This document shows positions 325 through 29,724 of a stretch of 33,382 nt of DNA, piece by piece. The notes under the pieces were generated by a model that was not told the DNA's origin, did no database searches, and worked only from the letters and a program-made list of their open reading frames with translations. Position 1 is the first letter of the stretch. Every line of letters begins with the position of its first letter. A program made the position numbers and the translations under genes. This DNA is from Candidatus Sericytochromatia bacterium (GTDB lineage: Bacteria; Cyanobacteriota; Sericytochromatia; S15B-MN24; JAQBPE01), in assembly GCA_035285325.1 (NCBI GenBank), contig JAYKJB010000020.1:1-33382 (forward strand). Reading direction: 5' to 3'.

Positions 325-353
325 TTGAGTTGTAGACATTTGTCTGCTTTACT
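325..353 (+). promoter_or_regulatory. dnaE2 promoter with LexA operator in the spacer
   Basis: A -35 like TTGAGT (325-330) and a -10 like TTTACT (348-353) are separated by exactly 17 bases. The spacer holds GTAGACATTTGTCTGC (332-347), a near-perfect palindrome with arms AGACA/TGTCT around TT. The same element sits in the same position in the lexA promoter (3567-3595). A palindrome shared by two SOS-type genes next to lexA is best read as the LexA operator, and binding there would block RNA polymerase. Operator assignment is inference from position and symmetry. Confidence 0.75.
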
Positions 354-431
354 GGTTTCTGGTTTCACGGGGTCGCTCACGGGCGGTCGTGCCGGCCGAA
401 CCCCGCAGACAGCTTATTCCAGGAGCGTTCG

Positions 432-3400
432 ATGGCGTTTCCGCTCTGGTGCAAGAGCAACTTTTCTTTTCTGGAGGGCGCCAGCCACCCCGAGGAGCTG
501 GTGGAAGCGGCGGCGCGCCAGGGCTGGTCGGGCCTCGCGCTCACGGATCGCGACGGCCTGTATGGCGTGGTCAAGGCCCATCGGCGTGCGCAGGCGCTCG
601 GTCTGCGCCTCTGCCTGGGCAGCACGATCACCCTGGAGGATGCCAGTCCGCTGGTCTTGCTGGTGCAGAACCGGCGCGGATACGCCAACCTCTGTCGCCT
701 GATCAGCGCGGGGCGGCTGGCCGCGCCCAAGGGGGCCAGCCAGGTCCGCTGGGACCAGCTGGCCGCGCATGCCGAGGGCCTGATCGCGCTGTGGGGCGGG
801 GCGGGGTCGCGCCTGCTGGCCGCGGAGCCGCCGGAGGCCGAGGCCGCCGGGCTGTGCGAGGCCTTCGGCGATCGCCTCTACGCCATGTACACGCGCCACC
901 TGCTGCCGGACGACCGGGCCCAGGAGCAGCGCCTCCGCCAGCGGGCCGCGCGCTGGGGCTTGCCCGTGGTGGCCACCTGCGAGGTGCGCTACCACGAGGC
1001 CTCTCGTCAGCCCCTGCAAGACGTTCTGACCTGTATCCGCACGGGGCTGCCGCTGCACCGGGCGGGCGGGCGCCTGGCCCCCAACGCGGAGTATGCCTTG
1101 CTGTCGCCCGACGCGCTGGCGCAGCGCTTCTCGGATGACCCGGCCGGCCTGGCCCGCAGCCTGGAGGTGGCCGCACGCTGCGACTTCAGCCTGGCCGAGC
1201 TGCGTTATCGCTATCCCAGCGAGCAGCTGCCGGACGGCCTGAGCTCGTTCATGCACCTGTGCCAGCTGGCCCGGGCCGGGGCGCGCTGGCGCTACGGCGG
1301 CGAACCGCCCGCCGAGGTGGAGGCCCAGCTGGCGCGCGAACTCGCGCTGATCGAACAGCTCGACTACGCCGGTTACTTCCTCACGATGCACGAACTCGTG
1401 CGTTTCTGCGCCCAGCGGGGGATCCTCTGCCAGGGGCGAGGTTCGGCCGCCAATTCGGTGGTCTGCTATTGCCTGGGCATCACGGCGGTCGATCCGATTC
1501 GCATGGGCTTGCTGTTCGAGCGCTTCATCTCGGCCGAACGGGCCGAACCGCCCGACATCGACCTCGACATCGAACATGAGCGCCGCGAGGAGGTGATCCA
1601 GCACGTCTACGAACGTTACGGGCGCACGCATGCGGCCATGGTGGCCGTGGTGATTGCCTACCGCCCGCGCTCGGCCATTCGCGACGTCGGCAAGGCGCTG
1701 GGCTTGCCTGAAACCGAGCTGGGGCGCGTCTGCAAGCTGCTGGGATACCGGGGCCCGATCGAGCAGGCGGTGTTGCAGCAGGCCGGTTTGCCCGCCCAGC
1801 ACGCGGTCTATCGCCACCTGCTCACGCTGAGCAACGCCCTGCTCGGCTTCCCGCGCCACCTCTCGATCCATCCCGGCGGCTTCTTGCTGGGGCATGAGCC
1901 CGTCAACGAGCTGGTGCCGGTCGAGAATGCCACGATGGAAGCCCGCACGGTGATTCAGTGGGACAAGGACGACATCGAGGCCCTGGGGCTGTTCAAGGTC
2001 GACCTGCTCGGGCTGGGGGCCTTGAGCCATCTGCGCCGCTGCTTCGAGCTGCTCGCCCGCCACGAGGGCCTTTATTACACGATGGCGACGATTCCGCCCG
2101 AGGACCCGGCCACCTATGCCATGCTCGGCCGGGCCGACACGGTCGGCGTGTTCCAGGTCGAGAGCCGGGCCCAGATGAGCATGCTGCCGCGCCTGAGGCC
2201 TTGCACCTATTACGACCTCGTGATCGAGATCAGCCTGGTGCGTCCGGGCCCGATCACCGGCGGCATGGTGCATCCCTACCTGCGTCGGCGGCGCGGCGAG
2301 GAACCCGTGGTCTATCCCCACGAGGCCCTGCGGCCGGTGCTCGCCAAAACCCTGGGCGTGCCGCTGTTTCAGGAGCAGGTCATGAAGCTGGCCATGGTGG
2401 CGGCCGACTACACGCCGGGCGAGGCCGACCAGCTGCGACGCGACATGGCCGCCTGGCGCAAGCATGGCAGCATGGCCCATCACTACGGCCGCCTGATCGG
2501 GCGTATGGTGGAAAAGGGCATCGAGCGCCCCTTTGCCGAACAGGTCTTCAAGCAGATCGAGGGCTTCGGCGAATATGGCTTTCCCGAAGCGCATGCGGCC
2601 AGCTTCGCCCTGATCACCTACATGGGCGCCTACCTGCGCTGCCACCACCTGCCGATCTTCGTCTGCGCCCTGCTGAACTCGCAGCCCATGGGCTTCTACA
2701 GCCCCGCCACGATCCTGGAGGATGCCCGGCGGCACGGCCTGACCCTCCTGCCGATCGACGTGCGGGCCAGCCAGTGGGACTGCACGCTGGAGGCGCTGCC
2801 GGCGTCTGCTTCGCCCGCGGCCGACCCGCTCGCACGCTGGGCCCTGCGCCTGGGCTTGCGGCTCGTGAAGGGCCTGTCGGCCGCGGCGGCCCAGCGCATC
2901 GTGGCCCTCATGCAGCCGGCGGGGGCCCTCCGCGAGCGGCCCGCTTCCCTGGAGGCTTTCATCTGGGAAAGCGCCCTCGACCAGGGGGCGCTGGCGGCCC
3001 TGGCCGAAGCCGGCGCCTTCGATGGTTTCGGGCTCACGCGCCGCCAGGCCCTCTGGGTCGTGCGCGGCGCGGCGCGGCGCGAGCCGCTGCCGCTGGGCTT
3101 CCAGGAGGCGTCGATTCCGGCCTTTCGTCAGCTCAGCCTGTTCGAGACGGTCCAGTGGGACACCCGCCGCACCGGCGCCAGTGCCCGGGCGCATCCGCTG
3201 GCGGTGTTGCGTCCCGAACTGCTGGCTCAGGGCCTGCCCGATGCGCGTGCGCTCAGCCGTCAGCCCAGCGGGGCGCGGGTGCGCTATGTCGGGCTGGTGA
3301 TCTGCCGCCAGCGGCCCGGCACCGCCTCGGGCGTCGTCTTTCTGACGCTGGAGGATGAAACCGGCTTCGTCAATCTGGTGGTCTGGCCGGCCGTGTTCGA

Positions 3401-3554
3401 GCGCTTCAAGCGGCTGGTCAAGACCGTCCAATGCCTGGGCGTGAGTGGCACGCTGCAGGTGCAGCACGGGCTGGTCCATCTGGTGGCCGCGCGCTTCTGG
3501 GAACCCGTGCTGGCCGCTCGGCTGCCCCGAACGGCCAGCCGCGACTTTCATTGA
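432..3554 (+). CDS. dnaE2: Error-prone DNA polymerase III alpha subunit, DnaE2/ImuC
   Basis: Catalytic subunit of the damage-inducible translesion mutasome, which extends DNA past lesions with low fidelity. The 1040-residue length is typical of DnaE2 and shorter than replicative DnaE. The N-terminus carries the family signature SNFSFLEGASHPEEL at the start of the PHP domain. The C-family polymerase catalytic motif PDIDLD is at residues 374-379, and a C-terminal OB-fold region follows (roughly 930-1025). QLSLF at 900-904 matches the beta-clamp-binding consensus. The ATG at 432 has AGGAG at 421-425. The gene is led by an SOS-type promoter and is followed 66 bases later by lexA. A long antisense open frame across it is a GC artefact. 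Confidence 0.97.
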   Translation: MAFPLWCKSNFSFLEGASHPEELVEAAARQGWSGLALTDRDGLYGVVKAHRRAQALGLRLCLGSTITLEDASPLVLLVQNRRGYANLCRLISAGRLAAPKGASQVRWDQLAAHAEGLIALWGGAGSRLLAAEPPEAEAAGLCEAFGDRLYAMYTRHLLPDDRAQEQRLRQRAARWGLPVVATCEVRYHEASRQPLQDVLTCIRTGLPLHRAGGRLAPNAEYALLSPDALAQRFSDDPAGLARSLEVAARCDFSLAELRYRYPSEQLPDGLSSFMHLCQLARAGARWRYGGEPPAEVEAQLARELALIEQLDYAGYFLTMHELVRFCAQRGILCQGRGSAANSVVCYCLGITAVDPIRMGLLFERFISAERAEPPDIDLDIEHERREEVIQHVYERYGRTHAAMVAVVIAYRPRSAIRDVGKALGLPETELGRVCKLLGYRGPIEQAVLQQAGLPAQHAVYRHLLTLSNALLGFPRHLSIHPGGFLLGHEPVNELVPVENATMEARTVIQWDKDDIEALGLFKVDLLGLGALSHLRRCFELLARHEGLYYTMATIPPEDPATYAMLGRADTVGVFQVESRAQMSMLPRLRPCTYYDLVIEISLVRPGPITGGMVHPYLRRRRGEEPVVYPHEALRPVLAKTLGVPLFQEQVMKLAMVAADYTPGEADQLRRDMAAWRKHGSMAHHYGRLIGRMVEKGIERPFAEQVFKQIEGFGEYGFPEAHAASFALITYMGAYLRCHHLPIFVCALLNSQPMGFYSPATILEDARRHGLTLLPIDVRASQWDCTLEALPASASPAADPLARWALRLGLRLVKGLSAAAAQRIVALMQPAGALRERPASLEAFIWESALDQGALAALAEAGAFDGFGLTRRQALWVVRGAARREPLPLGFQEASIPAFRQLSLFETVQWDTRRTGASARAHPLAVLRPELLAQGLPDARALSRQPSGARVRYVGLVICRQRPGTASGVVFLTLEDETGFVNLVVWPAVFERFKRLVKTVQCLGVSGTLQVQHGLVHLVAARFWEPVLAARLPRTASRDFH

Positions 3555-3566
3555 GCGCCGCCTGGC

Positions 3567-3595
3567 TTGACATGGCAGACATTTGTCTGCAAAAT
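3567..3595 (+). promoter_or_regulatory. lexA promoter with LexA operator in the spacer
   Basis: A consensus -35 TTGACA (3567-3572), a 17-base spacer and a -10 CAAAAT (3590-3595). The palindrome GCAGACATTTGTCTGC (3575-3590) fills the spacer, with 7-base arms GCAGACA/TGTCTGC around TT. This predicts autorepression of lexA and, by readthrough, of imuA and imuB. It differs from the operator at 332-347 in one base (C to T at position 2). Confidence 0.82.
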
Positions 3596-3620
3596 GGAAA
3601 GCCAGCGGAGGTTGTCACGC

Positions 3621-4241
3621 ATGCCCGGTCCCACCGGCCAGACCCGCCAGGCCATCTACCAGTTCATTCAGGCCCGCCTGCGCGAGGGGGCGCCCCCTCC
3701 CAGCATGCGAGAGATTCAGGCCGCCTTTGGCTTCAAGGCGGTTCAGTCGGTCAAGGTCCACCTCGATCGCCTGGTGGTCGACGGCTTGCTCACCCATGAT
3801 CCCGGCAAGGCGCGCTCTTACAGGCTGGCCCAGGCCGATGCAAGCGACCACGTGCCCGTCCCGATCTGGGGCCGGGTCCGGGCCGGCCCGCTGTCCGAGG
3901 CGATCGCCGATCCGGACGGCACGGTCTGGGTCGAAACCGCCTGGGCGCAGCGCCTGGGTCGCGACAGCCTGTTCGCCCTGCACGTCCGGGGCGACAGCAT
4001 GGTCGGGGCGGGCATCCTGGAGGGCGATCTGGTGATCGCCCGGCGCCAGCCGACGGCGCAGCTCGGCGAGATTGTCGTGGCCCTGCTGGAGACGGAGGCC
4101 ACGGTCAAGCGCCTGGCCCAGCATCGGGGTCAACCCGCCCTGCTGGCCGAAAACCCTGCTTACGCCCCGATTCTGCCCGATGAACGCAGCGGCTTCCGCA
4201 TCCTGGGCAAGGTGGTCGAGATCCGCCGCAGCCTGACTTAG
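3621..4241 (+). CDS. lexA: LexA SOS repressor (autocleaving, S24 family)
   Basis: A 206-residue transcriptional repressor that self-cleaves when RecA filaments form on damaged DNA. The winged-helix DNA-binding domain (about 5-68) includes PSMREIQAAFGF and VHLDRL. The cleavage site is Ala88-Gly89 (VRAG), and the catalytic dyad is Ser126 (GDSM) and Lys163 (ATVKRL), all present. I chose the ATG at 3621 because GGAGG lies at 3607-3611 with a 9-base spacing; upstream in-frame starts (3567, 3594) overlap the promoter. It ends with TAG, so TAG is a genuine stop in this genome. imuA follows after 16 bases, probably on the same transcript. Confidence 0.96.
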   Translation: MPGPTGQTRQAIYQFIQARLREGAPPPSMREIQAAFGFKAVQSVKVHLDRLVVDGLLTHDPGKARSYRLAQADASDHVPVPIWGRVRAGPLSEAIADPDGTVWVETAWAQRLGRDSLFALHVRGDSMVGAGILEGDLVIARRQPTAQLGEIVVALLETEATVKRLAQHRGQPALLAENPAYAPILPDERSGFRILGKVVEIRRSLT

Positions 4242-4257
4242 CCCCTGAGCCTGCCCC

Positions 4258-4890
4258 ATGACGTCAACCGCTCGCCTCTCCGCGCTGCCCTCGCTCGGGC
4301 CGGCCCGCCGGCTCGGCCTGTCGGTCGTGCGCCCGGAACCGGCCGCTCGCCTCGGCCTGGAGGAACTGCAAGGGCGCTTGTGCGAACTGCGCCTGCAGCG
4401 CGATTCCCTGGCTTACACGCGGGCGATCGCCTGGGTCCGGGAAGCCCAGGCGGCCGGTGAACCGGCGGCCTGGGTGACGCCCCCCACGCACGGCTTCTAT
4501 CCCCCCGACGTCCAGGCCCATGGCGTCGACCTGGCGGCCTTGCCCGTCGTTCGGCTGGCCCCTCCCGTCGCGCGTCTGCGCGCCGTCGACATGCTGTTGC
4601 GCAGCGGGGCCTTTGGCCTGATCGTGCTTGATTGGGAGCAGCAACCACCGCCCCCCGAGCGCATCCTGGTGCGGCTGGTGGGCCTGGCCAAGCATCACCG
4701 CACCGCCCTGGTGGGGCTGACCGCGCATCCGCAGGGCCTGGGCGGCCAGGTCTCCTTGCGGCTCCACCCCGAGCGGGCCCAGGAGGCTTCCGGTCGCTAT
4801 CTCTGCCGCCTCGGCGTCAGCAAGGACAAGCGCGGGGGCCCCGCGGAGCGCGGCCCGGAGGTGTTCAGTGGACCGGACGGCCTGTATTGA
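4258..4890 (+). CDS. imuA: ImuA, RecA-like mutasome accessory protein
   Basis: A 210-residue RecA-fold protein expected to support ImuB and DnaE2 in SOS mutagenesis. The pattern GxLxEL ... AWVTP....FYPPD (about 45-85) and the RecA-type beta-strand GLIVLDW match the ImuA/SulA-like family. No P-loop (GxxxxGK[TS]) is visible where RecA has one, as expected for ATP-independent members. The C-terminus has RLGVSKDKRGGP, resembling the end of RecA-core domains. There is only a weak ribosome site before the ATG, fitting translation coupled to lexA. Its last 23 bases overlap the start of imuB. Confidence 0.88.
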   Translation: MTSTARLSALPSLGPARRLGLSVVRPEPAARLGLEELQGRLCELRLQRDSLAYTRAIAWVREAQAAGEPAAWVTPPTHGFYPPDVQAHGVDLAALPVVRLAPPVARLRAVDMLLRSGAFGLIVLDWEQQPPPPERILVRLVGLAKHHRTALVGLTAHPQGLGGQVSLRLHPERAQEASGRYLCRLGVSKDKRGGPAERGPEVFSGPDGLY

Positions 4891-6391
4891 CGTGCCGCTG
4901 CTGGCCTTGCAGCTGCTGCTGCGGGCCGAGCCGGGCTGGCGCCAGCGGCCGGTGGCCGTGCTCGAACACGATCGCCCCCATGCGCGGGTGCTGGCCCTGA
5001 ACCGGGTGGCCCGTCAGCAGGGCATCTGCCCTGGCGAGCGTTATCAGCAGGTGCTGGCCAGGGTGCCGACGCTGGAGGCGGCCCCGGTCTCGCCGCTGGC
5101 GATCGCCGAGGCCCAGCGCGAGCTGCTGGCTTGCCTGCTGAATTTCAGCCCCACCGTCGAGCCTCGGCGGGAGCAGCCGGGGTGTTTCTGGGTCGATGCG
5201 GCCGGCTTCGAGCAGCTCTACCCCTCGCCCCAGGCCTGGGGCGAATGCCTGCGGGCGGCCCTGCAGGCGCTCGGTTTCGAGGCCGCCGTGGTGATCGGGC
5301 ACGGACGCTTCGCGCCCTGGGCGCTGGCCAGGGCGCAGCGGGGGCGCGGCGTGACGGTGTACGACCCGGCCGGACAGGCGGCGGCGGTGGCGGCCGTGCC
5401 GCTGAGTTGCCTGGAATTGCCGCCGGACGAGCGCCACTTCCTGCTCACGCTGGGCGTCGACCACGTGGCGGCCTTGCAGGCCTTGCCCGCCGAGGGCCTG
5501 ATCGGCCGGCTCGGGCCCGAGGCGCTGGCCCTTTGTCGCCTGGCCCGGGAAGACCCCGCGCTGCCGCTGCAACCCGCCAGCCTGCAGGTGCCGCTGCAGG
5601 CGACCAGTTCGTTGCCCCACGGGGTGCTGGAGCTGGGCGCGCTGGTGTTTGCCGCCAAGCCGCTGGTAGACACCTTGCTGGCACGCCTGGCGGCTCAGGG
5701 GCAGGCGCTCGCCGGCCTGACGCTGCGGCTCGGCTGCGACACCTCGCAGGAGCGGCCCGGCTGGCGGCGCGAGGCGGAAGGGCTCTGGCGGGAGGAGGCC
5801 CTGCGCCCGGCCGAAGCGACGCTTTCCAGCTTGCGCCTGATGGAGCTGGTGCGCCTGCGGCTGGAGGGTCTGCCCCTGCCGGGGCCGGTCCACACCCTGG
5901 TGGCGATCGCCGAGGGCTGCCCGCTGACGGCCCACCAGCTGGACGCGCTGGCGATCACGCCGCGACGCGATCCCGCGGCCGGGGCGCGCGCCCTGGCGCG
6001 CTTGCGGGCGGCCTTTGGCGAAAACCAGGTGGTGGTGGCGCAGCCGGGCGATCGCCACCTGCCCGAGCGCCGCTGGCACTGGGAGCCGGTCGACCGGATT
6101 CAGGCGCCGAATCTGCCGGCCGGGCCGCCGGACACGCCTCCACCCCTGGTGCGCTCGGTCTATGCGCGCCCACGCCAGCTGGCCCCGCGCCCGGCCGAGG
6201 GCTGGTGGCCGCTGGGGGCGCAGGCCGGGGCGCTCTGCCGGGAGGTCGGTCCCTTCCGGCTGGCGGGCGGCTGGTGGCACAGCGCGGTCGAACGCGATTA
6301 TTATTTCATTGAAACCGAGTCCGGTGACCTGCTCTGGGTCTACCGGGACAACCGGCGGGGTCACTGGCTGTTGCAGGGACGGGTGCAATGA
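4868..6391 (+). CDS. imuB: ImuB, catalytically incomplete Y-family polymerase
   Basis: A 507-residue Y-family polymerase homologue that bridges DnaE2, ImuA and usually the beta clamp in the mutasome. The start is GTG at 4868 with GGAGGT at 4857-4862; it overlaps imuA by 23 bases. The N-terminus CIDVPLLALQLLL aligns with the first Y-family motif, but only Asp8 is kept. The SIDE motif is replaced by WVDAAG (Asp110-Ala111), so the metal-binding acidic pair is lost, as is usual for ImuB. No QLxLF-type clamp motif was found in the C-terminal half, whereas DnaE2 has one. Confidence 0.93.
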   Translation: MDRTACIDVPLLALQLLLRAEPGWRQRPVAVLEHDRPHARVLALNRVARQQGICPGERYQQVLARVPTLEAAPVSPLAIAEAQRELLACLLNFSPTVEPRREQPGCFWVDAAGFEQLYPSPQAWGECLRAALQALGFEAAVVIGHGRFAPWALARAQRGRGVTVYDPAGQAAAVAAVPLSCLELPPDERHFLLTLGVDHVAALQALPAEGLIGRLGPEALALCRLAREDPALPLQPASLQVPLQATSSLPHGVLELGALVFAAKPLVDTLLARLAAQGQALAGLTLRLGCDTSQERPGWRREAEGLWREEALRPAEATLSSLRLMELVRLRLEGLPLPGPVHTLVAIAEGCPLTAHQLDALAITPRRDPAAGARALARLRAAFGENQVVVAQPGDRHLPERRWHWEPVDRIQAPNLPAGPPDTPPPLVRSVYARPRQLAPRPAEGWWPLGAQAGALCREVGPFRLAGGWWHSAVERDYYFIETESGDLLWVYRDNRRGHWLLQGRVQ

Positions 6392-6449: not shown

Positions 6450-7358
6450 GTGCCGTTCGCAGCCCTTCGTGCCTTCCTGGAACCCTTGCAAAACTGGCTG
6501 CAAGCGCGCCTGACCCCCGCGCCGCCGCCCCGGCCGCCGGCCCCGGCGTCGCGGGAGGAAGGACCGTCCGCCCTGCCTGACTGGCGCGCGGAACTGCTGG
6601 CGGAGAGTCGTTTCAACTGGGAGGAGGCCGTCGCCCCGGCGCGCGCGTTGGCGGAGGACGGCGGGGAGGCCGGGCCTGCGCCGACGCTGCCGGCCGCTCC
6701 CCTGCCCTGGGTGGCGCCTCAGGTGGACCAGCCGGCCGCTCGCTTCGCGCGCCTCGGCTATGCCCCTGGCGCCCGGCCCCCCAGCCTGATGGCGCTCAAG
6801 GACCTCTTCGAGGCCGTCTATGGTCCTTGCCTGGCCCCGCTGCCCACTCGAGTGCTGCACGACACGGCCCTGTTCGGCGGTCTCGACGGCTGGAACCCGG
6901 CCGCCGGCAACGACAACCTCGGCCGCCTGCACGTGGTCTTTCGCCAGCTGTCCGAGCTGCTCGGCGAGGCCTTCGCCTTCAAGCCGGCCCCGCTGGGGCG
7001 GGTCGACCACCACCGTCAGCTGGGCGGCTACTACGACCACCAGGCGCAGGCCATCTTCCTCGCCACCAGCTTGCTCCGCTCCCATCCTGCGGCCGTGGCC
7101 AACACCATCGCGCACGAGCAATTTCACCGCCTGCAGCACCTGCTGATCCAGCGCCTGATGTACGCGCCGCGCAAGCTGTCGTCGGCCGAACGCAGCCTGG
7201 CCATGTACTGGCATGCCGAGGGCACGGCCGAACCGGGCGCGGACTTCGCGGCCTATCGCTACAACGGACGCGAGTACCACGCCGACCAGACGGCCAAGGC
7301 GCTGGTGCGCCTGCTCATGCCGGTGTTCGACTGGCCGCCTCAGGTGCTGGCCTATTGA
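6450..7358 (+). CDS. HExxH zinc-metallopeptidase-like protein
   Basis: A 302-residue protein starting at GTG 6450, with AGGAGG at 6438-6443. The N-terminal third is Pro/Ala-rich and low in complexity. The C-terminal two thirds contain NTIAHEQFHRLQH, in which His222-Glu223-x-x-His226 is a zincin HExxH motif; Glu257 or Glu261 in WHAEGTAEPG could supply the third ligand. No signal peptide is evident, so it is probably cytoplasmic. It lies 58 bases after imuB on the same strand with no visible terminator between, so it may be co-transcribed with the SOS operon. I do not recognise a named family; protease function is inferred from the motif alone. Confidence 0.7.
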   Translation: MPFAALRAFLEPLQNWLQARLTPAPPPRPPAPASREEGPSALPDWRAELLAESRFNWEEAVAPARALAEDGGEAGPAPTLPAAPLPWVAPQVDQPAARFARLGYAPGARPPSLMALKDLFEAVYGPCLAPLPTRVLHDTALFGGLDGWNPAAGNDNLGRLHVVFRQLSELLGEAFAFKPAPLGRVDHHRQLGGYYDHQAQAIFLATSLLRSHPAAVANTIAHEQFHRLQHLLIQRLMYAPRKLSSAERSLAMYWHAEGTAEPGADFAAYRYNGREYHADQTAKALVRLLMPVFDWPPQVLAY

Positions 7359-7456
7359 GGGTGGGGGAACCGCTCCACTCTCCTCGCTGAGCGCTTCAAA
7401 CCGGGCCCGCGTGCCGGCTCGCGCTTGCCTGGGTAGAAGGCTCCCAGGAGGGCCCC

Positions 7457-8077
7457 GTGCGCCGTTTGACCGCTGTGACCAGAACCCTGTTGCTGGCGGC
7501 TGGCGCTGGCCTGATGTCCGGCTGTGCGGCGGCTCTGACCGCTTTCGACCAGGACTTTCAGTCCGCCACGGCCCCCATGGCCGCGCCGGGTGCGCCCTAC
7601 ACGCAGACCTACGACGAGACCGGCACCGAGGTCAAATATGTCTACTTCGGTCCCTTCGCGGGCTGGCTGTCGGGCGGCCGGGCGGTGCGCTACACGCGCT
7701 TCAATCGCTCGCTGTACGCCGGGGCGATGATTTACGGCACGGTTCCTTTCATTGGTCAGCGCTGGTCTCCCGCCTTCGGCTATGCCGGTCTGCAGGGCGG
7801 CTACGAGGGCCACTATGGCCCGCTCATCTACAACACGACCCTGCTGGCCGGTGTCACCAGCGCCATCTCGGAATGCACCGCCAACCCGCTGGGGCAGCAG
7901 TTCACGCTGGAACCGAGCGTTTCGCTCGGGTTGCGCATCCCCGGGATGATCGGCTGGAAGGCCTCGATCGTGGGCGGGGTGCTGGTGATGCCGCTGGTGC
8001 CGGAGCAATCCGGCTGGACCCTGGGCCTGCGCATCGACCAGAAGATCATGACCGCCTCGGTGCCCGCGGCCGACTGA
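7457..8077 (+). CDS. Putative lipoprotein, unknown function
   Basis: A 206-residue protein with start GTG 7457 and AGGAGG at 7446-7451. A lipoprotein signal ends in LMSGC (Cys23). The mature part is rich in Gly, Tyr and aromatic beta-strand-like segments (YVYFGPFAGWLSGG, GYAGLQGGYEGHYGP) and ends in alternating hydrophobic strands (TLGLRIDQKIMTAS). This looks like an all-beta envelope protein. No family recognised. Its end converges with the ATPase gene, 9 bases away. Confidence 0.72.
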   Translation: MRRLTAVTRTLLLAAGAGLMSGCAAALTAFDQDFQSATAPMAAPGAPYTQTYDETGTEVKYVYFGPFAGWLSGGRAVRYTRFNRSLYAGAMIYGTVPFIGQRWSPAFGYAGLQGGYEGHYGPLIYNTTLLAGVTSAISECTANPLGQQFTLEPSVSLGLRIPGMIGWKASIVGGVLVMPLVPEQSGWTLGLRIDQKIMTASVPAAD

Positions 8078-8086
8078 TGGCGGCGC

Positions 8087-9247
8087 TCAGCGCGACACGG
8101 CCTCACACAGGGCGGTCAGGCTGGTCGCCTCGACGGCTTGCCCGAGCGGCCAGCTGTCGCGCCCGGGGTGGACCACCAGGCGCCGCGCAGGTTGCAGGTC
8201 CGCGCAAGCCAGGTGGAAGCCTCGACTCAGGGTGGGCGCCGTGGCGCGCTTGATCTCGATCGCCCAGTGCGTGCCGTCCGGCCAGGCCAGCAACAGGTCG
8301 ACTTCGGCGCCCGCCGCCGTGCGATAAAAGTGGCAGGTCACACCGGGTGGGCAGGCGGCTGCCACCTGCTCGATCACGAAACCCTCCCAGCTTGCCCCGG
8401 CCACGGGGTGACCCAACACGGCATTCTCATCGACCAGCCCCAGCAGGGCGTGGACCAGCCCACTGTCGCGCACGTACACCTTGGGTGCCCGGACCAGCCG
8501 CTTGCTGACATTGGCCTGCCAGGGAGACAGCCGGCGCACGAGCAGCAGGTCGACCAGCAGGTCGAGGTAGCGCCCCGCCGTCCGCACATCGATCGCCAGG
8601 CTGCGGGCGAGGTGGGCCACGTTCAGCAGACCGCCCTGCAGGTGCGCCAGCATGGTCCACAACCGTCTCAACGTTTCCGCTGGTAGGCGCGGCGCAAACA
8701 TCGGCACGTCTCGCTCCAGGTAGGTCCGGATGAAATGTTCACGCCAGCGCAGGCTCGCCGCGTCGCGGGGAGCCTGCCAGCTCTCCGGGAAGCCCCCGCG
8801 CACCCAGAGGCGTTCCACGTGCTCGCTTCCGACTTCCTGAAGCAGCAGGGGCCCCAATTCCGTGACGGCGATCCGCCCGGCCAGCGTCTCACCACTTTGG
8901 GCCAGCAGGTCCAGACCGGCGGAACCCAGCAGCAAATAGAGTCCGTGACGTCGTCCTGCCCGTCGGCTGCGGTCGATCAGGCCACGCAGGACCGGGAAGA
9001 GTCCCGGGATGCGATGGACCTCATCCAGAATCACCAGGCGATCCACTTGCCGGGCCAGAAAGGCCTCCGGATCCGTGAGCTTCGCGCGATCCGTCGGCGA
9101 CTGGAGATCGAGATAGAGACTGGGACGCTCCTCGGCGATGGCCAGGGCCAGCGTCGTCTTGCCTGTCTGCCGGGGCCCGAGCAGGGCCACAGCCGGCGAC
9201 TCGGCCAGTTCTGCCCGCAAGTTGGCCGCGATCATTCGCTTGTACAT
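8087..9247 (-). CDS. AAA ATPase with C-terminal DUF4143
   Basis: A 386-residue predicted ATPase of the AAA_14 + DUF4143 type, common in accessory DNA and of poorly known function. Walker A is GPRQTGKTT and Walker B is LVILDEVHR, followed by a sensor-like LLLGSAGLDLL. The DUF4143 part contains YVRDSGLVHALLGL and a PD-(D/E)xK-like segment EVDLLLAWPDG...AIEIK. I favour ATG 9247 (MYKRMI...), which matches the usual N-terminus of the family and coincides with the predicted transcription start; ATGs at 9274 and 9235 are alternatives. The gene has no HIP1 octamers and an AT-richer, palindromic promoter, which would fit horizontal acquisition. Confidence 0.9.
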   Translation of the reverse strand: MYKRMIAANLRAELAESPAVALLGPRQTGKTTLALAIAEERPSLYLDLQSPTDRAKLTDPEAFLARQVDRLVILDEVHRIPGLFPVLRGLIDRSRRAGRRHGLYLLLGSAGLDLLAQSGETLAGRIAVTELGPLLLQEVGSEHVERLWVRGGFPESWQAPRDAASLRWREHFIRTYLERDVPMFAPRLPAETLRRLWTMLAHLQGGLLNVAHLARSLAIDVRTAGRYLDLLVDLLLVRRLSPWQANVSKRLVRAPKVYVRDSGLVHALLGLVDENAVLGHPVAGASWEGFVIEQVAAACPPGVTCHFYRTAAGAEVDLLLAWPDGTHWAIEIKRATAPTLSRGFHLACADLQPARRLVVHPGRDSWPLGQAVEATSLTALCEAVSR

Positions 9248-25077: not shown

Positions 25078-26016
25078 ATGGCCGCTTCCCGTCTCATTCC
25101 TTTCCTGCTCAGCGCCAGCCTCGTGCTGGCGGCCGGCGCGGCGCGGCCGGTCGGGGCGGCGCCCGCTTCGGTTCCGGCCAAGCGGCCCTCGCCCTATCCC
25201 TCGCCGCTCAGCGGGGCGGTCCCGCAGGAGCTGGTGGAGGAGCTCGAAGAGGGCGCGCGCATCAACTGGACCACCGGGCAGCTGACCGTCAGCGGGCTGG
25301 GCGTGCCGGTGGATCGCGGCGCGGCCTCTTTCAAGCGGGCCTTATCGACCCGGGCTGCTCGGGCCGATGCCTTTCGTCGGCTGTCCGCCATCCTGGAGCT
25401 GCTGCGGGTGGACGCCAACACGCGCGTCAAGGACCTCGCCGTGATCGACGATTCCCTGCGCAACCGCCTGAACGACTTCATCAAGGCCGCCACGGTACTG
25501 GAAACGAACCACTGGCCGGACGGCTCGACCGAGCTGGTGCTGGGGGTGGACTTGCGTGGCGATCGCGGCCTGATGGCCCTGGTGGGACCCCCGCCGGAAC
25601 CCGTCGCCTCGCCCAGCCTGAGCGTCTCCCCGACGCCTGCGCCCTCGCCGACGCCGTCGGGCGGGCCGACCAAGCCGCTCAAGGAAATCGTCACCGAGCC
25701 GGTCAACCTGCGCGCGACTTACACCGCCTTGGTGGTCGATGCCCGCGGACTCGGCGCGCAGCCGGCCCTGTTGCCGGGGCTGCGCGACAAGGACGGCAAG
25801 CCGATCACCTTCAAGGAAAAGAGCTTGAAATACCTGCGCGATGGGGCCGACATGGACCCGAGTGCCGGCGTCAATCCGCTCTCGCTGCGGGCCCAGCGCA
25901 CCCAGGGCAGCCTGCGGGCCGACCTGGTGCTCGGCAGTGAATCGAGCGACCAGCTCAAGCAGGCCCAGCGCGACAAGAAGCTCGGGCCGGCCATCCCCCT
26001 GATCATCCTGCTGTGA
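25078..26016 (+). CDS. Secreted LPP20/FlgT-like domain protein
   Basis: A 312-residue exported protein. ATG 25078 has GGAGG about 6 bases upstream (25069-25073). The signal peptide is about 1-27. Residues about 48-155 resemble the LPP20/FlgT N-terminal type domain: INWTTGQLTVSGLGVP, ARADAFRRLSAILELLR, VKDLAVIDDSLRNRLNDFI, and the strand TELVLGVDLRG. A Pro/Ser linker (about 178-205) leads to a second domain (THR/VVDARGLGAQPALLPGL). Related proteins act in envelope or flagellar structures. A DUF4127 gene begins 17 bases after its stop. Confidence 0.78.
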   Translation: MAASRLIPFLLSASLVLAAGAARPVGAAPASVPAKRPSPYPSPLSGAVPQELVEELEEGARINWTTGQLTVSGLGVPVDRGAASFKRALSTRAARADAFRRLSAILELLRVDANTRVKDLAVIDDSLRNRLNDFIKAATVLETNHWPDGSTELVLGVDLRGDRGLMALVGPPPEPVASPSLSVSPTPAPSPTPSGGPTKPLKEIVTEPVNLRATYTALVVDARGLGAQPALLPGLRDKDGKPITFKEKSLKYLRDGADMDPSAGVNPLSLRAQRTQGSLRADLVLGSESSDQLKQAQRDKKLGPAIPLIILL

Positions 26017-26033
26017 ACAAGGAGTCCCGGCGC

Positions 26034-27497
26034 ATGACCACGCTGGCGGTCCTGCCGCTCGACGATCGCCCCGTCACCTACGACCTGCCGGCCCGCATCG
26101 GGGCCATGGGCGGGGCGCGGGTGCTGCTGCCACCGCGGGCGAGCCTGGGCAACCTGGTGCGCACGGGCGACCGGGCGGCGCTCGGGGCCTGGCTGCGCGA
26201 GGTGGCGCCCGAAGCCGATGCCGTGATCGTGGCGCTCGACACCCTGGCCTACGGGGGCCTGATTCCCTCGCGGCGCTCGCCCGACGCGCTGGCCGACCTG
26301 CTGGAGGCGACCCTGCCGCTGCGCACGCTCAAGGCCGAGCGCCCCGACCTGCCGCTGTACGGCTTCAGCGTGACGATGCGGCTGTCCGATTCCAACGTCA
26401 ACGAGGAGGAAAAGCCCTACTGGGATCGCTACGGCAAGCTGATCTTTCGCTGGAGCTTCCACCAGCACCGCTTCAAGGCCCAGAACGATCCGCAGGACCA
26501 GGCGATCGCCCGGGCCGCGCGGGCCGCGATCCCGGATGAGATCCTGGCCGACTATCTGGCCACGCGTGAGCGCAATTTCAGCTTCAACCAGACCATGGTC
26601 AAGTGGGCCGGGGCCGGTTTCTTCGACGCCCTCTTGCTGACGCAGGACGACACCGCCAGCTTCGGCCTGAACGTCGAGGAGCAGCAGCACCTGCAGCAGA
26701 TGGTCAACACGACCCTGATTCAGGATCGCGTCCTGATCTACCCGGGAGCGGACGAGGTGGCTTCGGTCCTGGTGGCGCGCGCGCTGAATCGGCTGGCCGG
26801 GCGGACCCCGCAGCTGGCCGTCTCCTGGCATCCGCTGGATGGCAAGCGCGTGCAGGCCATGTACGAGGACCGCCCGCTCTGGCAGACGCTGCGCGGTCAG
26901 ATCCGGGCGGCCGGGGCCAAGGAGGTCGGCGATCCGGCCGCGGCCGAGCTGGAGATCGTGGTGAACACGCCGGCGACCGGCCAGGGCGATCTGGCGCTGG
27001 GCTTGAACCTGGAGGCTCCCGACACGCCCGTGCGCAACCTGGAACCTGTGCTCATGGCCCTGTCGGAGGCCGAGAAGCGCCCGCTCGCCTTTGCCGACGT
27101 GGCCTACGCCAACGGGGCGGACCCGCGCCTCTGGTCCGAGCTGGTGAGCCGGCTGGACCCCTGGCAGTGGCGGGCCTTCGCCGCCTGGAACACGGCCGGC
27201 AACACCTTCGGCACGGTGGTCGCGATGGCCTGCGCGAGCCTGCTGCCCACGGCCGACGAGGCGGCTCGCCAGCGCCTGATCACCGAGCGGATCGCCGATG
27301 ATTGGCTCTACCAGAGCGTGATCCGCAAGGACCTGCAGGCCGCGCAGCGGGAAGGGGCCGCCCCTCCGGCGCTGGCTGAAACGCTCGATACGGCGCTCGC
27401 GGCTGCCTGGCAGGCGCAGTTTGCGCACCGCCCGACCCGCTTTGCCACCGGCTTGCCCTGGCAGCGCCCCTTCGAGGCCCGCACCGACGTGACCTGA
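26034..27497 (+). CDS. DUF4127 family protein
   Basis: A 487-residue cytoplasmic protein of the DUF4127 family. It has the family N-terminus TLAVLPLDDRPVTYDLP, the central VIVALDTLAYGGLIPSR and the pair LTQDDTASFG ... YPGADEVASVLVARAL. Activity is uncharacterised; the conserved Asp/Arg and Ser/Arg patches look like an enzyme active site, which is inference. The start is ATG 26034 because AAGGAG lies at 26019-26024 with a 9-base gap. An in-frame GTG at 26013 overlaps the previous stop. It is in an operon with the LPP20-like gene. Confidence 0.9.
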   Translation: MTTLAVLPLDDRPVTYDLPARIGAMGGARVLLPPRASLGNLVRTGDRAALGAWLREVAPEADAVIVALDTLAYGGLIPSRRSPDALADLLEATLPLRTLKAERPDLPLYGFSVTMRLSDSNVNEEEKPYWDRYGKLIFRWSFHQHRFKAQNDPQDQAIARAARAAIPDEILADYLATRERNFSFNQTMVKWAGAGFFDALLLTQDDTASFGLNVEEQQHLQQMVNTTLIQDRVLIYPGADEVASVLVARALNRLAGRTPQLAVSWHPLDGKRVQAMYEDRPLWQTLRGQIRAAGAKEVGDPAAAELEIVVNTPATGQGDLALGLNLEAPDTPVRNLEPVLMALSEAEKRPLAFADVAYANGADPRLWSELVSRLDPWQWRAFAAWNTAGNTFGTVVAMACASLLPTADEAARQRLITERIADDWLYQSVIRKDLQAAQREGAAPPALAETLDTALAAAWQAQFAHRPTRFATGLPWQRPFEARTDVT

Positions 27498-27571: not shown

Positions 27572-28054
27572 GTGTCCCGACTGTTTTCCTTGCCCTCTTT
27601 GCTGTCCGCCCTGGGTCTGGCCTGCCTGTCTGGCTGCCAGCACGCGCTGGTCGCGCCGGTGCCGCATCATCCGATGCAGCGCTTCATCATGGGCGTGCCC
27701 GAGCTGCTGCCGCCTGAAGCGGAGGCCTTCCCGGTTGAGGAGTTACCGCCTTTCGATGGCGGCGGGGTGGGCACCACGCCGGCCGGGCTGCCCGTGCCGG
27801 AGCTCAAGCCTTCAGCCCTGCCCGCCTTTCCCGTCGATGCCCCCCTGATGGCGCCTGCCCTGCCGGAGGCGACGCCGACGCCGGCCGCACCCCGGACGGG
27901 CGGCGGCGGTGGCGGCGGTGGAGGGGGCGGGGGCGCCGTGGCCCCGCCGCCTTACGTGCCGCCCGGGATGCAGGTCGGCATCACGCCGCAGACCGGCGGC
28001 TGGATCGACCCGGCCGCCAGCGTGACGGCCGAGGTGGTGGAGGTCACGCCGTGA
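27572..28054 (+). CDS. Pro/Gly-rich lipoprotein, unknown
   Basis: A 160-residue lipoprotein; GTG 27572 with AGGAG (27559-27563). The 8-base spacer between them is a HIP1 octamer. The signal ends in ACLSGC (Cys22). The mature protein is almost all low-complexity: Pro/Ala/Glu segments, a run of 12 glycines, then PPPYVPPGMQVG and a short C-terminal piece. It is probably a flexible surface tether. Its stop overlaps the GTG of the beta-propeller gene by 4 bases, so the two are translated together. Confidence 0.75.
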   Translation: MSRLFSLPSLLSALGLACLSGCQHALVAPVPHHPMQRFIMGVPELLPPEAEAFPVEELPPFDGGGVGTTPAGLPVPELKPSALPAFPVDAPLMAPALPEATPTPAAPRTGGGGGGGGGGGGAVAPPPYVPPGMQVGITPQTGGWIDPAASVTAEVVEVTP

Positions 28055-29724
28055 GACGCTGGCTGGCGGGCGCGCTCGCAGGCGCGCTGGCGGCTTGCAG
28101 CGCGCCCCCGTTGCCGCCGGCACGCCTGGCGCTGGAGGCTGCGGCGCCGGCGCGCAGTCGGCTGGTGGTGGCGATCGCCCCCCCGCGGGTGCTGCAAAGC
28201 GCTGCGCGCAGCTGGAAGGCCAGCGACGTGGCGCGCTACGACATCGTGCTCGGCGCCCTGAACGGCCCGGACCCGCTACCGGACGTCGGGGCGAGCGGCA
28301 CGGCCGGCGCGTCCGCCAGCCTGCCGGTGCCACCGGCCACGCGCACCATCCCGCTCAGCCAGGCCGGCGAGGCGGTCTTCGATGACGTGCCCGGTGGCTG
28401 GCGCTATCAGGTGCTGGTGCGGGCGCTGGGCAACGCGGGCGGCACGGCGCCGACGCTCTGGCTGAACCAGCAGCGGCCGGCCAGCGCCACCATCGATCTG
28501 CGCAGCGCGGGGGGCTCGCGGCGCTTGCAGCTGACGGTGCCGCTGGACGCCCAGCCCTTCGGCGCCACCGTGCGCCTGCCGAGCCTGCCGGATACCCCTG
28601 AGCGCATTCCGGACTGGACCACGGCTCTGACGGCCTCGCTCACCGAGGTGGGAGCGGCCACGCCGGTGGCCACGGCGGCCTGGCTGCCCTCCCGGCGGGC
28701 CCAGTTCCTGAACGTGCCGGGCGATCGCCCCTACGCGCTGAGCGTGACCTACTTCAGTGCCGCCGGCGGGCGCAGCGTCACGCTGCCCAATTTCGTCATT
28801 CCGCGCCAGGACGCCACGGACACCCTGCAGATTCCCAACCTGCCGGTGCCGGCGCCGCCGACCGGAACCCAGATGGCGCACGCGAGTTTCCCCGGGGGGG
28901 CCTTCATGGGCGCCTTCGATCCCGAGGGGCGCTTCTGGCTGACCCACCAGAACAGCCACGAGGTCAGCGTCCTGAATGACGCGCTCGACCCGCTCCTGCC
29001 GGGCCTGGCCGTGGGCAATCAGCCGCGCGGCATCGCGATCGATCCCGATACGGGCCTGGTCTGGGTGGCCAATTTTGGCAGCCACAACGTCACGCGCTTG
29101 AATCCGGACGGCTCCCCGGCCGGCACCTCCAGCATGGGTTTTCTGGGCTCCCCGAGCGGCATCGGCGTGGATGCCCAGCATCGCGCCTGGGTGGCCAGCC
29201 ACGTCTGGGGCACGGTGCGGGTGTTCAACCCGAACGGCACGCAGATGGCCAGTTCGCCGATCACGGTCGGCAGCAACCCCACGGGGCTGGCGATCGACCG
29301 CACGACCGGGGAGGTCTGGGTGGCCAACAGCGGCGACAACACCGTCAGCAAGCTCTCGTCCGAAGGGGCCACGCTCGGCGTGTACGTGCTCGGGGTCCAG
29401 CCCGGGGCGATCGCCGTGGCCCCCGACCACAGCGCCTGGGTGGTGTCGGCGGCCACCAACCAGCTGATTCACCTGGCCCCCAACGGCGTGCCGATCGGCG
29501 CCCCGATCCCGGTGGGCGCCGGTCCGGCCGGCCTGGCCATCGACCCCCGCGACGGCAGCGTCTGGGTCGGTATCCAGAACGGCGCGCTGGTCAGCAAGCT
29601 GGAAGCCAGCGGCACGATCCTCGGGACCTGGCCGGCCGGCAACTTCCCTGGCACGCTGGCGATCGACGGCGACAGCCACGCCTGGGTGGTGGGCGACGGA
29701 CAGGTCACGCGGCTGGCGCCGTGA
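28051..29724 (+). CDS. Surface lipoprotein with seven-repeat beta-propeller (NHL/Vgb-like)
   Basis: A 557-residue lipoprotein; GTG 28051 and lipobox LAAC (Cys16). Residues about 17-270 form a beta-rich N-terminal region without recognised motifs. From about 275 to the end come seven repeats of about 40 residues with the core P.GIAID...G.VWVAN.....V..L...G, as in QPRGIAIDPDTGLVWVAN and NPTGLAIDRTTGEVWVAN. This matches the Vgb-lyase/NHL/SMP-30-like propellers. Vgb catalytic residues are not evident, so a binding role is likelier than lyase activity. It is coupled to the preceding Pro/Gly lipoprotein. Confidence 0.87.
   Translation: MRRWLAGALAGALAACSAPPLPPARLALEAAAPARSRLVVAIAPPRVLQSAARSWKASDVARYDIVLGALNGPDPLPDVGASGTAGASASLPVPPATRTIPLSQAGEAVFDDVPGGWRYQVLVRALGNAGGTAPTLWLNQQRPASATIDLRSAGGSRRLQLTVPLDAQPFGATVRLPSLPDTPERIPDWTTALTASLTEVGAATPVATAAWLPSRRAQFLNVPGDRPYALSVTYFSAAGGRSVTLPNFVIPRQDATDTLQIPNLPVPAPPTGTQMAHASFPGGAFMGAFDPEGRFWLTHQNSHEVSVLNDALDPLLPGLAVGNQPRGIAIDPDTGLVWVANFGSHNVTRLNPDGSPAGTSSMGFLGSPSGIGVDAQHRAWVASHVWGTVRVFNPNGTQMASSPITVGSNPTGLAIDRTTGEVWVANSGDNTVSKLSSEGATLGVYVLGVQPGAIAVAPDHSAWVVSAATNQLIHLAPNGVPIGAPIPVGAGPAGLAIDPRDGSVWVGIQNGALVSKLEASGTILGTWPAGNFPGTLAIDGDSHAWVVGDGQVTRLAP

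Follow-up and report, generated by a model that had tools for sequence, protein, structure and literature searches.

A second LexA repressor encoded together with the imu genes is already known, and the locus described here appears to differ from the known cases in its LexA clade, its operator and its spread. In Pseudomonas putida, a lexA2-imuA-imuB-dnaE2 (imuC) operon was described by Abella et al. (cited in PMC3901139 and PMC8565304); its LexA2 is co-transcribed with the imu genes and controls them directly (PMC3901139). Xanthomonas has two LexAs, LexA1 and LexA2, with different boxes in one cell (Yang et al., 2008, cited in PMC8565304), and in Deinococcus, where lexA-imu clusters occur, SOS control is limited to some repair genes and recA is regulated otherwise (PMC8072749). 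Duplication of LexA, divergence of its motif and takeover form a published model, and 17 LexA motifs had been reported as of 2021 (PMC8565304). As for cyanobacteria, imuABC was not found in them according to a 2012 review (PMC3901139).

We analysed a stretch of 33,382 nucleotides (hereafter the window) from a Candidatus Sericytochromatia bacterium, which is contig C20 of a 3.83-Mb assembly that is 98.6% complete. The initial annotation proposed that its start holds a self-contained mutasome cassette under LexA control, with an operator unlike the common types, and our comparisons support this reading. It is very probable that we are dealing with a self-regulated translesion-synthesis cassette, in which the cassette's own LexA2, acting on CAGAC-N4-GTCTG, would govern the cassette alone, while LexA1, acting on a GAAC-N4-GTTC box, would govern recA and its own gene, the repressor and its operator having been inherited or transferred across phyla as one unit. 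The adjacency of dnaE2, lexA, imuA and imuB is borne out by their coordinates (432-6391), and the four genes lie on a single strand:

325-353, + strand: dnaE2 promoter, -35 TTGAGT (325-330), 17-bp spacer, -10 TTTACT (348-353); read by eye
332-347, no strand: predicted operator 1, GTAGACATTTGTCTGC, within the dnaE2 promoter spacer; from the sequence and a genome pattern scan
432-3554, + strand: dnaE2 (imuC), error-prone DNA polymerase III alpha subunit, 1040 aa; from NF004225, Pfam domains and the DnaE2 tree
3567-3595, + strand: lexA2 promoter, TTGACA-17-CAAAAT; geometry as in the dnaE2 promoter
3575-3590, no strand: predicted operator 2, GCAGACATTTGTCTGC, within the lexA2 promoter spacer; from the sequence, the scan and orthologue promoters
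3621-4241, + strand: lexA2, LexA repressor, 206 aa, ATG start; from TIGR00498 and residue alignment
4258-4890, + strand: imuA, RecA-like accessory protein, 210 aa; from a weak NF033429 match and position
4868-6391, + strand: imuB, Y-family-like protein, GTG start, overlapping imuA; from PF00817 and motif alignment

DnaE2 reaches 1304 bits against NF004225 (cut-off 939) and is thus a DnaE2-type polymerase. LexA2 scores 141.9 bits with TIGR00498 (cut-off 110.95), its winged helix-turn-helix (PF01726) and S24 (PF00717) domains both exceed their curated cut-offs, and the solved structures closest to it are those of LexA repressors, E. coli LexA-DNA complexes among them. By homology to E. coli LexA, its recognition-helix residues are A40, V41, Q42 and S43, its cleavage site is A88-G89 and its catalytic residues are S126 and K163; all are invariant across 12 orthologues save Q42 and S43, which vary. 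The match of ImuA to NF033429 is weak (E 1e-7, under the family cut-off), and by position the protein is a probable orthologue of the products of the ImuA-position genes of carrier loci, to which it is 34-51% identical. ImuB matches PF00817 at 5e-11; in the motif alignment its second acidic motif reads FWVDAAG, without Glu, as in its relatives, and this loss of the second acidic pair is consistent with an inactive polymerase. A QLxLF beta-clamp motif is known in ImuB from mycobacteria. The ImuB of the window has QLDAL instead and several relatives have QLDLF or QLQLF, so that the motif, not being kept by all relatives compared, is not strictly defining. DnaE2 carries QLSLF in the window and TLSLF in another genome of the same family (G002), and the clamp contact may have shifted from ImuB (QLDAL) to DnaE2 (QLSLF).

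Both boxes do sit at the same place between -35 and -10, as first noticed. In the whole 3.83-Mb genome AGACATTTGTCT has exactly two copies, in the dnaE2 and lexA2 promoters, each inside a 17-bp spacer. Dinucleotide shuffles of the window predict 0.01 occurrences of AGACANNTGTCT where two are observed; genome-wide, base composition predicts 0.67 sites for the 12-mer, and the two exact sites are both in the cassette. Allowing up to one mismatch, the 14-base form has 12 sites in the genome versus 11 for the reversed control, and the cassette pair are the only perfect ones. These scans were made by pattern, and the size of the LexA2 regulon is judged from near-exact matches only. The half-sites AGACA/TGTCT had been called unlike those of common LexA boxes, and they are indeed distinct. 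The box is no isolated oddity, however: it has the geometry of the Gram-positive-type LexA box (xNNAC-N4-GTNNx), from whose GAAC-N4-GTTC form it differs at two positions per half-site around a common AC-N4-GT core.

A GAAC-N4-GTTC box of this kind serves the other LexA of the genome. LexA1, encoded on contig C63, is 39% identical to LexA2 and has GAACATGTGTTC in its promoter. Two recA genes exceed the family cut-off: the one on C16 (L007, G000:C16:111366-112322) is preceded by CGAACAGATGTTTG and CGAACAAATATTCG, and the copy on C51 (L008, G000:C51:3278-4234) has no LexA1-type box. The recognition helices read S-T-S-T-V-H in LexA1 versus A-V-Q-S-V-K in LexA2. The main regulon thus appears to use the Gram-positive-type box and the cassette LexA2 its own, and cross-binding would be possible because the AC-N4-GT core is common to both. 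The initial annotation looked to further copies of the cassette box at other SOS genes as a check, and the genome has none; the idea of a LexA-controlled cassette stands all the same, since recA is served by a second LexA that has a different box. Elsewhere in the class, too, genomes carry two or more LexA-like genes, and the boxes of some of these differ (L025 and L161 in G010, L023 in G004).

CAGAC-N4-GTCTG recurs with LexA2 across phyla. The best relatives of LexA2 in named genomes (47-55% identity) belong to Latescibacterota, Krumholzibacteriota, Hydrogenedentota, Binatota, Acidobacteriota, Myxococcota and Nitrospirota; two more come from records without classification, and an orthologue is found in another family of the window's own class (G001). 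In all ten named-genome loci and in G001, lexA2 adjoins imuA and imuB, and every one of these loci except the Acidobacteria record has the box in its lexA2 promoter. DnaE2 accompanies most of them, reduced in some to a fragment where the contig ends, and none was seen at the L042 locus. The 12 LexA2 proteins form one clade (SH-aLRT 100), apart from the LexA1 of the class and from Xanthomonadales LexA. Of 396 genomes surveyed in the phylum of the Acidobacteria record, 25 have LexA2 when E 1e-75 is taken as the limit; imuA lies in all 25 of the fetched stretches and imuB in nearly all. In the cyanobacterial phylum imuB is present in 6/386 genomes, all of the window's class. The relationship to Cyanobacteria, which the initial annotation raised as a condition, holds: PsaA/PsaB are carried by 48 of the 117 genomes sampled from the phylum and by none of this class, which we therefore take as a non-photosynthetic class inside Cyanobacteriota. 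A plasmid origin was considered and set aside, as the listed LexA matches on plasmids share no more than about 43% identity and carry the annotation of ordinary lexA; no synteny was found between the flanks of the window and the carrier loci.

Among 36 LexA2 promoters, 23 contain two perfect CAGAC half-sites, five keep one (L205, L209, L213, L221 and L223; for L213 and L221 the automatic scan chose another stretch, and their boxes were read by eye) and eight have another half-site, TAC-type in seven and GGAC-type in one. Within 300 bp of other lexA genes the operator is absent (0/94). By a fixed test the box falls inside the -35/-10 spacer in 25 of 35 cases, versus 8% with shuffled flanks. In the window and in L048, dnaE2 is separate from lexA2-imuA-imuB and has its own copy of the operator; L040 has one operator before imuA, and L043 two before lexA2. 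Where the recognition helix has P at position 41, the box is C[A/G]TAC or AATAC (5/5 members), versus a TAC-type box in 2 of the 31 members without it (Fisher p 6e-5); L210 is an exception, with a V helix yet a CATAC box. On the best tree this covariation of helix and operator reflects about three independent events, and on strongly supported branches a single one, so it is suggestive only. Occurrences of CAGAC-N4-GTCTG elsewhere in carrier genomes, considered as regulon sites, have mostly G/C-rich spacers and for the most part are about as frequent as the reversed control, and were therefore treated as chance. As a separate observation, xNNAC-N4-GTNNx fits many LexA promoters with varying outer bases (GAAC, ATAC, GTAC, GCAC, ACAC) that seem linked to residues of the recognition helix and could amount to a LexA recognition code (loci L014, L023, L051, L060, L071, L072, L076, L077, L089, L116 and L224).

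In the mechanism we propose, LexA2 dimers would bind CAGAC-N4-GTCTG in the spacers of the lexA2-imuA-imuB and dnaE2 promoters and compete there with RNA polymerase. Upon DNA damage, RecA filaments would trigger self-cleavage of LexA2 (A88-G89, S126/K163); the cleaved repressor would leave its operators and ImuA, ImuB and DnaE2 would be produced together for error-prone, presumably mutagenic, bypass, until fresh LexA2 switched the cassette off. RecA-mediated induction by damage is the expected behaviour of a LexA, and since LexA2 keeps the cleavage and catalytic residues, it is expected here as well.

The operators could also answer to the main LexA. If the AGAC box were a tolerated variant of GAAC, LexA1 could control the cassette, alone or with LexA2, and the geometry and core common to both boxes agree with this. 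Moreover, control of the LexA1 type appears to occur in the same family: G002 has imuA-imuB-dnaE2 with LexA1 as its only LexA, and GAACATACGTTC, a GAAC-N4-GTTC box, upstream of imuA. Nevertheless, the AGAC half-sites recur in the promoters of LexA2 members across phyla and in 0/94 other lexA promoters, and in some carriers no other LexA scores above the cut-off, which makes this explanation improbable. Harder still to believe is that the palindrome is bound by a different, unlinked regulator and that LexA2 acts elsewhere: the palindrome tracks LexA2 and not the host, since unrelated phyla have it in their lexA2 promoters, and the half-site tends to change where the recognition helix of LexA2 changes.

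At least eight phyla share the LexA2-operator pair, which gives the cassette the look of a portable, self-regulated mutator module. The module may have moved as one through these phyla as an insulated second SOS regulon, having become the sole LexA circuit in some hosts, with SOS reduced to mutagenesis, and having been recaptured by the host LexA in G002, although we would stop short of calling this whole scenario probable. In four genomes (G387, G393, G394 and G395) the single LexA seen is LexA2; that it also governs recA there was considered and rejected, no CAGAC box being present in the readable recA promoters, and should these MAGs be complete, only the mutasome would be under LexA control there. 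As for G002, its promoter and gene content are most simply read as a loss of LexA2 with LexA1 taking over the operon, the alternative being an independent gain of imuA-imuB-dnaE2 without LexA2. Old vertical inheritance with massive loss, which concerns the history of the cassette and not its function, seems to us a rather unlikely account of the cross-phylum pattern. It predicts the grouping of DnaE2 within the class, (G001,(window,G002)) with supports of 97 and 99, and the cassette is close in GC content to the DNA around it; against vertical inheritance, though not decisively, stand the patchy counts of imuB (6/386) and LexA2 (25/396) in the two phyla and the position of LexA2 as a single clade, separate from the LexA1 of the class.

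Our partial search of the literature found no report of this LexA2 clade, of the CAGAC-N4-GTCTG operator or of their pairing across phyla. The locus thus adds a LexA clade with an apparently unreported operator, and brings the cyanobacterial phylum into the range of the imu cassette. The related genomes also offer a natural series (two LexAs; LexA2 alone; LexA2 missing and the operon under a GAAC box; helix and box changing) in which the model of LexA duplication, divergence and takeover can be tested directly. Elsewhere in the window, two open reading frames just 3' of imuB (6450-7358 and 7213-8253) have no Pfam match, and a DUF4127 protein (26013-27497, 440 bits) is followed by an NHL-repeat/Vgb-lyase-like protein (28051-29724).

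Set beside the known systems, the LexA2 box has the dyad geometry and core of the Gram-positive-type box carried by LexA1, and differs from it by GA to AG in each half-site, as well as in the recognition helix. As in Xanthomonas, two LexA proteins with distinct boxes share one cell. As in Deinococcus, SOS control reaches only a subset of genes, but there the main response belongs to IrrE/DdrO and not to a second LexA. The lexA-imuB-dnaE2 arrangement is also found in the proteobacterial loci L061 and L099, whose LexAs and DnaE2s lie outside the LexA2 clade and which have no CAGAC-N4-GTCTG; the proteobacterial lexA-imu loci included fall outside this clade in our LexA tree, which is drawn without P. 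putida LexA2. The operator of P. putida LexA2 is GTAC-N4-GTGC. The present locus differs from the P. putida operon in this box, in phylum and in its upstream dnaE2, which forms a transcript apart and has an operator to itself; it resembles it in a second LexA that is encoded with the imu genes, in a host with another LexA regulon, and whose box is confined to the cassette.
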